Below, piece after piece: positions 56,226-58,565 of a stretch of DNA of 64,000 nucleotides. The DNA is from Nitrospira sp. (lineage in GTDB: Bacteria; Nitrospirota; Nitrospiria; Nitrospirales; Nitrospiraceae): the NCBI GenBank assembly GCA_015709715.1, contig CP054184.1, positions 2,093,001 to 2,157,000 on the forward strand, read 5' to 3'. The notes under the pieces were generated by a model that saw nothing but the letters and a program-made list of their open reading frames with translations, did not search any database and was not told the DNA's origin. Made by a program: the position numbers and the translations under genes. Within the stretch, counting starts at the first letter, position 1. Each line of letters starts with the position of its first letter.

Positions 56226-58565
56226 CTACACCATCGTCACGGGATCGACATCGATACCGAACCGCAGTCCGCCTCGCCTTGATTCTCGCTCCAGTCGCTC
56301 CAAGGTCCGCAGGATCTTCTCCGTTCCCGCCCCAGCCTGCCGGGATTTGACCAGAATCTGCCAGCAGTACCGGCCCCTGGTCCGGACATGCGGCGCCGGC
56401 GAAGGCCCGAGGACCGTCACGTCATCAACGGAAGCCTGAAGATCTGCTCCGACTGGTCTCGGCGCCGACTGAATCACCTCCGCGCGAAGGAGTCCGGCCC
56501 ACCGTTCGGCAGCACGGATCACAGCCCACTCCAGCGTACCCGAGATATTCAACCGCACCAACTGTGTAAACGGCGGGTACTCAAGCATTTCCCGGAAACC
56601 CAGTTCTTGCTCTAGAAACCGGCTCTCGTCGCCGGAGGCGAGGGCGGCCATAACGTGGTGATCCGGGAAACGAGTTTGTACGACGACTCGGCCACCGGCA
56701 TCGAGCGGTTCGGCCAAGTTGATCGCATCCACCAACCCGCGATACGTTCGTTCAGCGGCACGAAAATCCGAGACGTGCAGGCCCGCATCTGCATCAGGGA
56801 TCGCGACAAACGCAGCCCGTCCCTGGAGATCCAGTCCAAACAGCATCTGCGTGCCGATCACGACGTCAAATTCTCGCGCGGCCAGAGCGCGTCTGAATGC
56901 GAGCGCCTCGGGAGGCCGCCGGATCGTATCACCATCCGCGCGCCCCACGCGTACTTGCGGGAACAGGCGCCGGACGTCTTCTTCGATCCGCTCAGTCCCG
57001 GCCCCGACGGGCTCCAGCTTCAGCGATTGGCACTGTAGGCAATGATCGGGTACCGACCTGGCTCGTCCACAATAGTGACAGCGCATCTGCTGACTGTTTT
57101 TGGAGAACGTGAGGGCGATGCTGCAGGTTTCACACTGCGGCATCGCTCCACAGTCACGACAGTGCAGCACACTGGCAAAGCCCCGACGATTCATGTAGAG
57201 AACGGCCAGACCATTCCGAAGCAAGGCGGCTTCCAGCCCCTCACAGACCAGAGCCGACAACAGCCCCTGTGAACGGTCCTTCAGCAGGACATGTATGTCG
57301 ACGACCTCCACCCGTGGCAGGACTGCGTCATCTCGATACAGGCAAGCAGTCATTACTCCGCGACGTGCCATTGACCAACTTTCCAGCGAGGGATGACTGG
57401 AAGACAGGACCAGTAGCGCCCCCTCATTGAGGGCACGATGCTGTGCAACCTCCCGCGCATGGTATCGCGGGACTTGCTCCTCTTTGAGTGCCTCCTCATC
57501 CTCCCCTTCGACCCAGATCAACCCCAGCCGTTCAAGTGGGGCGAAAACGGCTGAGCGAGTCCCGATCACCACATTCGTGGATGGCGCCTGCACCTCCCGC
57601 CAGACGGCCGCTTGCGCTTTGGCCGAGGTTGTACGGTGCATAAGCAACGCGGGAACTCCCGCAGACGCCAGAGCGTCCACCAAATATTTAGCGTGTTCGA
57701 CATCTCCCGTCACCACCAAGACGCGCCGGCCTCGGCGGATGGTTTCCTGGGCGGCTTGAACCAGACACCAGCGCCTGCTCTCCTGGGTGGACTGCAGCAA
57801 GATAGGCATCCCTGCGGCATGCGAGAGCGCCTCCCCCACAGCCGCCGGCCAAGATTCGACCGCCTCGCGGGCAACTGACACCGGGCCCATAGCTGAATTT
57901 ATAAGACCAGCCTGACCGACTTGGGTGCTTGCCTCATTACGCGGTCGAGAGGCCGGCAGAGCACCGTCGACCGCGCGGCGAAAGACGCATCCTTTCCCGA
58001 TCAATCCCTGCAATGCTTTCGTGATGCTGGAATCCTTACCACGCTCCAGGGTTGTCGCTTCAAGGCCGTCGCGGCGGCAGAGCCTCTTTAGCAATTGCCA
58101 TTCAGCCGCGGCGAGGCCATTACCGTGAGAGACGCATCTCAACCCCTCGTCGGTCGGCTGATACCGCACGCGGCCCTTTGTCGTCGGCACCATCGGAGGG
58201 GCAACGAGTTTGATGCATTGCCCCCAGGGAGCAGCGTACCGCTGTGCCAACCAACGGCTCAGATTCAGCTGTTGCGCGCTTAAGGTAGCCTCGGACACAT
58301 CCGAGGCCAGGGCGCGAACGGCCTTGAGACTCTCCACCGGCACTCCTGAGGGAAGGTGCCCATACAGTGCGGTGACCAACCCTTGAATCTCCCGAGTCCC
58401 GAAGGGAACAATGACCGATTGACCAATGTCCACCTTCCCTCGGAGATTGTCGGGAATGAGATAGGTGAAAGGCCGATGCAGGCGGCGAGGCAAGATGACA
58501 TCCGCAAAGGCAGTGGCACAGGCCGGATCGGCCGGGCGGCACAACAATTCAGGAGAATCGGGCAT
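56226..58565 (-). CDS. priA: PriA-family primosomal protein lacking helicase ATPase motifs
   Basis: The 779-residue protein aligns with PriA over its whole length: 3'-DNA-binding domain (VILPRRLHRPFTYLIPDN), the eight-cysteine zinc module (CRDCGAMPQCETC...CHYCGR...CLQC), VGAGTERIEEDVRRLFP, DFRAAERTY and the C-terminal domain ending FGIDVDPV. The helicase motifs are lost: Walker A GVTGSGKT reads QSTQESRR, the DEEH box reads EGEDEE, GSATP reads SSSHP and the QVAGRAGR motif reads INLAEPLD. It probably keeps structural replication-restart functions without helicase activity, as is reported for actinobacterial PriA. Confidence 0.9.
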   Translation of the reverse strand: MPDSPELLCRPADPACATAFADVILPRRLHRPFTYLIPDNLRGKVDIGQSVIVPFGTREIQGLVTALYGHLPSGVPVESLKAVRALASDVSEATLSAQQLNLSRWLAQRYAAPWGQCIKLVAPPMVPTTKGRVRYQPTDEGLRCVSHGNGLAAAEWQLLKRLCRRDGLEATTLERGKDSSITKALQGLIGKGCVFRRAVDGALPASRPRNEASTQVGQAGLINSAMGPVSVAREAVESWPAAVGEALSHAAGMPILLQSTQESRRWCLVQAAQETIRRGRRVLVVTGDVEHAKYLVDALASAGVPALLMHRTTSAKAQAAVWREVQAPSTNVVIGTRSAVFAPLERLGLIWVEGEDEEALKEEQVPRYHAREVAQHRALNEGALLVLSSSHPSLESWSMARRGVMTACLYRDDAVLPRVEVVDIHVLLKDRSQGLLSALVCEGLEAALLRNGLAVLYMNRRGFASVLHCRDCGAMPQCETCSIALTFSKNSQQMRCHYCGRARSVPDHCLQCQSLKLEPVGAGTERIEEDVRRLFPQVRVGRADGDTIRRPPEALAFRRALAAREFDVVIGTQMLFGLDLQGRAAFVAIPDADAGLHVSDFRAAERTYRGLVDAINLAEPLDAGGRVVVQTRFPDHHVMAALASGDESRFLEQELGFREMLEYPPFTQLVRLNISGTLEWAVIRAAERWAGLLRAEVIQSAPRPVGADLQASVDDVTVLGPSPAPHVRTRGRYCWQILVKSRQAGAGTEKILRTLERLERESRRGGLRFGIDVDPVTMV

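Follow-up and report, generated by a model that had tools for sequence, protein, structure and literature searches.

A full-length PriA in Nitrospira sp.

The window analysed here, a stretch of 64 000 nucleotides from the complete genome of Nitrospira sp. (contig CP054184.1), contains on its reverse strand a priA gene whose open reading frame, strand and coordinates are exactly those given by an earlier sequence-only reading of the same DNA (Table 1). That reading had described a full-length PriA with zinc module, 3'-binding domain and C-terminal domain, and the description was borne out: three PriA domains (PriA_3primeBD, PriA_C and Zn_ribbon_PriA, the last at residues 478–502) exceeded the Pfam cut-off, the protein scored 366.6 bits on the TIGR00595 priA model, whose cut-off is 230, and phmmer aligned the protein to Klebsiella/E. 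coli-type PriA across nearly its full length. It thus has the 3'-DNA-binding domain, the cysteine-rich zinc region and the C-terminal domain of PriA, the replication restart protein, which ordinarily unwinds stalled forks and sets replication going again. The same Pfam search found no helicase family in it. An AlphaFold model of the single sequence reached a pLDDT of only 36.7 and was set aside.

The sequence-only reading had named beforehand a second, canonical PriA as its refuter. A search for an intact second PriA in the complete genome (one contig, 4.16 Mb, 99.97% complete) and in the other genomes of the order (Nitrospirales) found none: the genome contains a single PF17764 match, and the remaining TIGR00595 matches listed in genomes of the order score about 60 bits, the usual level for other helicases.

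Table 1. Position and state of the PriA features encoded in the window.
Feature	Coordinates	Strand	Pfam match
priA pseudohelicase gene (779 aa), the genome's only PriA	56226..58565	-	
3'-DNA-binding domain (aa 22–123), kept	58197..58502	-	PF17764 (PriA_3primeBD), E 2e-20
Pocket positions Trp105 (Klebsiella Trp82, kept) and Arg109 (Klebsiella Tyr86, lost)	58239..58253	-	
Motif I / Walker A site (aa 254–272): PILLQSTQESRRWCLVQAA, GSGKT lost	57750..57806	-	
Motif Ia site (aa 281–292): GDV in place of PEI	57690..57725	-	
Motif II / Walker B site and following loop (aa 347–374): VEGEDEE for VDEEHD, RYHAR kept	57444..57527	-	
Motif III site (aa 382–396): SSSHPS for GSATPS	57378..57422	-	
Pocket position Val404 (Klebsiella Lys370, lost)	57354..57356	-	
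Cysteine-rich zinc region, Cys469–Cys512, 8/8 cysteines kept	57030..57161	-	
Motif V site (aa 566–608): Lys-Gly lost, GTQM kept	56742..56870	-	
Motif VI site (aa 609–634): VDAINLAEP for QVAGRAGR	56664..56741	-	
PriA C-terminal domain (aa 665–775), kept	56241..56573	-	PF18074 (PriA_C), E 5e-16

Loss of the helicase motifs

Aligned in E. coli numbering, the window PriA has serine at the Q-motif glutamine (Q203), QESRR at the Walker A GSGKT (227–231), EG at the Walker B pair D320–E321, SSH at the SAT of motif III (356–358) and GL at K544–G545 of motif V, and it lacks the GRxGR of motif VI (583–587). In terms of single residues, the losses also take in motif Ia (P253–I255) and comprise G355, A357 and T358 in motif III and Q580, G583, R584, G586 and R587 in motif VI. 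None of the five SF2 helicase motifs I, II, III, V and VI is therefore present. The earlier proposal that all helicase motifs had been replaced holds for motifs I, II, III and VI, with one correction: some of the sequence around motifs II and III (E322, P359 and RYHAR) is kept. Judged by its sequence, the protein is a PriA by descent and not a PriA helicase.

In an alignment of 52 canonical PriAs, 89 columns are invariant to 93% or more; the columns of this set that are lost throughout the genus cluster in the helicase motifs, with a few others (e.g. R380, Q420, H455 and R688). Across 46 sequences of the order, all eight zinc cysteines, Y18 and G29 of the 3'-binding domain, and R625, P631, P632, G674, P675 and P729 of the C-terminal domain are 100% kept. 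When the five motifs were scored by pattern in 124 PriAs, the scores fell into two peaks, 4–5/5 or 0–1/5, by which motor loss is all-or-none.

Distribution and origin of the motorless PriA

Motorless PriA (0–1/5 motifs) was found in all four sampled families of the order (f1–f4; the 46 sequences above). Within the same class, families f6, f8 and f10 are also motorless, while at least seven families (f5, f7, f9 and f11–f14) encode a canonical PriA. Elsewhere in the phylum, PriA is motorless in f19, f25, f27, f34 and f35 and carries all five motifs in f17, f18, f20–f24 and f36. Beyond the phylum, the sampled actinomycete PriAs (Mycobacterium, Streptomyces, Gordonia and others) are likewise motorless (0–1/5, with 0 in six of seven) but far more divergent, scoring 86–125 bits with TIGR00595 against 366 for the window PriA. 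The sequence-only reading had stated that actinobacterial PriA proteins lack ATPase motifs, which is true of these actinomycetes but not of Atopobium (Coriobacteriia; L262, one genome sampled), whose PriA is intact, so that the actinobacterial loss is not phylum-wide. One genome each of Aerophobetes (L266) and Elusimicrobia (L267) also encoded a PriA that lacks all five motifs. The named outgroups were obtained from a 16S-pattern scan and include no Deinococcota, the comparison with that phylum resting on the published work (PMC4504706).

In a tree built without actinomycetes and with the motif columns removed, the order (SH-aLRT 99) and families f6, f8 and f10 form one clade (93), whose neighbours are the canonical PriAs found in that class. 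The second motorless group of the phylum, possibly Thermodesulfovibrio-like to judge from genome size and gene content, lies apart, near f36 (93), although the AU test did not reject one origin for the whole phylum (p-AU 0.338). The earlier reading had offered independent loss and shared descent with the actinobacterial proteins as alternatives, and the PriA tree does not decide between them: the actinomycete branches are very long and shift position between trees, and a tree constrained to keep the actinomycetes out costs only 0.62 log units (p-AU 0.473). Descent from, or with, an actinomycete PriA by horizontal transfer would agree with this p-AU and with a 59-row tree that places the order and the actinomycetes on one side of a branch with a support of 90. 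However, the two are apart in a 100-row tree, branches of such length are expected to attract one another, all pseudohelicases of the class group beside its own canonical PriAs once actinomycetes are removed, and f8, inside that clade, keeps the canonical-like residues AYKQ after motif II, which the order lacks; we consider transfer improbable. The taxon distribution favours a lineage-specific loss of the motor, and loss within the Nitrospirales lineage is favoured by the canonical PriA of sister families of the class and by the intermediate residues of f8. The motor would then have been lost in the ancestor of the order and the three related families f6, f8 and f10.

Constraint on the motorless protein

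Over priA, dN/dS was about 0.15–0.33 in 25 close pairs of the genus and was generally lower in the helicase lobes; in the pair L010/L011, for example, dN was 0.041 and dS 0.191 for the gene, and 0.029 and 0.212 for the lobes. These substitution rates show constraint on the lobes despite the missing motor, which is what a scaffold would predict. The sequence-only reading had argued for selection for a non-helicase function, and it is supported by the all-or-none, order-wide loss, by the retention of a sole full-length copy and by purifying selection.

The alternative that priA is decaying towards loss, another protein having taken over restart, appears very improbable. Absence of the gene may be tolerated in places, as two genomes from the same family as the genome of the window (G107, 99% complete, and G144, 94%) gave no PriA match above the level of generic helicases, which reflects either true absence or an assembly gap. 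Against decay, nearly every genome of the order carries a full-length priA free of stops, dN/dS is well below 1, and the zinc cysteines and the invariant residues of the 3'-binding and C-terminal domains are fully kept; with the motifs absent in all four sampled families, the window PriA is not a decaying copy. Equally far-fetched is continued use of ATP through non-standard residues, for which the kept RecA-like lobes and the conservation of E322, N459/R460/G462 and GTQM might speak, as retention in the genus is only 0–20% for the P-loop Lys and Thr, for the acidic pair of Walker B and for the two arginines of motif VI, and a single Walker A lysine change kills the ATPase of E. coli PriA (PMC4504706).

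An altered C-terminal tip on SSB

SSB, the single-stranded DNA-binding protein, normally recruits repair proteins such as PriA through its C-terminal tip. The genome of the window has a single TIGR00621 SSB gene (L284:1534–1926, minus strand, at about 1.628 Mb) in an rpsF-ssb-rpsR-like arrangement, whose product ends in ...HEEHSYDDEQY, without Pro-Phe. All 37 genomes examined from the order (23 in f1, six in f2, four in f3 and four in f4) have a housekeeping SSB without the terminal Pro-Phe. Its endings there include YEDEQL/F/S/M, EEDIPQ, YETGDEG, YESEEYA and FESDEPI and often run from aromatic to acidic ([YF]-E-x-[DE]-[DE]), whereas in the other families of the phylum a conserved PF ends 36 of the 38 SSBs. 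The exceptions outside the order were a MAG (L298, G090) and a second SSB paralogue in G161; the former belongs to a DVPF-tip family and the end of its ORF looks frame-shifted, probably an assembly error. The pattern [DE][DE][ILVM]PF-stop had one match in the genome of the window, as did a reversed control pattern, and this match was rejected as an SSB since its ORF does not look like one. Since the new tip still carries conserved acidic and aromatic residues, SSB docking may persist in an altered form.

Families f6, f8 and f10 combine a motorless PriA with a normal DVPF tip, which places motor loss before tip loss. The change from a [DE]-V-P-F tip to one that lacks the terminal Pro-Phe would have followed, and would be confined to the order. 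Mycobacterium and Streptomyces, unlike the genome studied here, keep a PPF tip on SSB. Deletion of the tip is lethal in E. coli, whereas B. subtilis tolerates it with repair defects (PMC3000357), so its loss is survivable. The open-access literature on SSB-tip absence and on Nitrospira SSB yielded nothing about these bacteria. Tip loss is a more surprising result than loss of the PriA motor.

RecO is encoded in 93 of 98 genomes of the class, and in its alignment the basic pocket residues are lost at background level (1 forward, 3 reverse). Column 237 of this alignment (L367–L396) is nearly fixed, with Arg in 13 of 15 PF-tip relatives and Gln in 15 of 15 sequences of the order, and is also at background level.

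The PriA pocket for the SSB tip

Klebsiella PriA binds the SSB tip in a pocket of Trp82, Tyr86, Lys370, Arg697 and Gln701 (PMC5531588), the last two of which are too narrowly conserved to inform. Counted by residue class, the Trp82, Tyr86 and Lys370 columns are retained in 100% of the canonical PriAs of the phylum and of its motorless PriAs outside the order that coexist with a PF tip, but in only 65%, 39% and 22%, respectively, within the order. Compared with random triples of conserved columns (110 in all, ATPase sites left out), the pocket triple is unusually eroded, with p 0.011 for retention and 0.003 for the difference, values that ignore sequence relatedness. Judged by these columns, three of the order's four families have an eroded pocket. 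The fourth, f4 (one genus), keeps all three residues despite an SSB without the PF tip, and tip loss and pocket loss are thus not tightly coupled.

A putative scaffold for helicase reloading

The PriA pseudohelicase is a known kind of protein. Like PriA of Deinococcus radiodurans (Lopper, 2015; PMC4504706), the window PriA is full-length, has lost the Walker A Lys and the Walker B acids and has no intact second copy beside it; ATPase and helicase are inactive there and are predicted to be so here, and a DnaB-loading scaffold has been proposed. The D. radiodurans protein matches Walker A and B poorly (a K to R change is reported), whereas the window PriA also lacks motifs III, V and VI, comes from a different phylum and occurs alongside an altered SSB tip. 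PriA of E. coli and Klebsiella shares the domain architecture, zinc cysteines, 3'-binding domain and C-terminal domain but, unlike the window PriA, is an active SF2 helicase that docks the DDDIPF tip of SSB. What is new is the lineage, the completeness of the loss and the association with an altered SSB tip.

The most likely role for the window PriA is the one reported for D. radiodurans PriA, a scaffold that recognises forks without ATP and serves the reloading of DnaB. In E. coli, PriA loses both ATPase and helicase through K230R (PMC4504706), and DnaB-loading assays have been carried out with K230A PriA (PMC10175261), so that loading of DnaB does not need the PriA motor; the D. radiodurans protein, with its K to R change, is inactive but still able to bind forks and DnaB (PMC4504706). 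A motorless PriA can therefore in principle do the loading. A joint DciA–PriA role has been proposed for Caulobacter (PMC9825169), DciA is encoded in 77 of 78 genomes of the class, and RecG is present in the genome of the window.

We therefore think it likely, with good though not complete confidence, that the sole, motorless PriA is a fork-recognising scaffold that promotes DnaB reloading, probably with DciA, and that the order-wide change of the SSB tip and the decay of the pocket came later. Such a PriA would neither bind nor hydrolyse ATP, as we infer from its missing motifs. Branched forks would be recognised through the 3'-binding domain, the zinc region and the C-terminal domain, single strand would be exposed by other helicases such as RecG, and DnaB would be reloaded at the fork, a step in replisome loading that is plausible for this protein. 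With the tip pocket decayed in most families of the order, recruitment of PriA would probably depend on the structure of the fork, or on another contact with SSB, and not on the classical SSB tip. More tentatively, and with somewhat less than even expectation, the order may have abandoned or rewritten the SSB C-terminal hub altogether, its motorless PriA with the decayed pocket restarting replication without classical SSB-tip recruitment.

The PriA motor would thus be dispensable in another phylum, one in which canonical relatives are close at hand for comparison. An order without the SSB tip allows tests of which SSB partners really depend on it and of whether the recruitment of PriA is replaceable.
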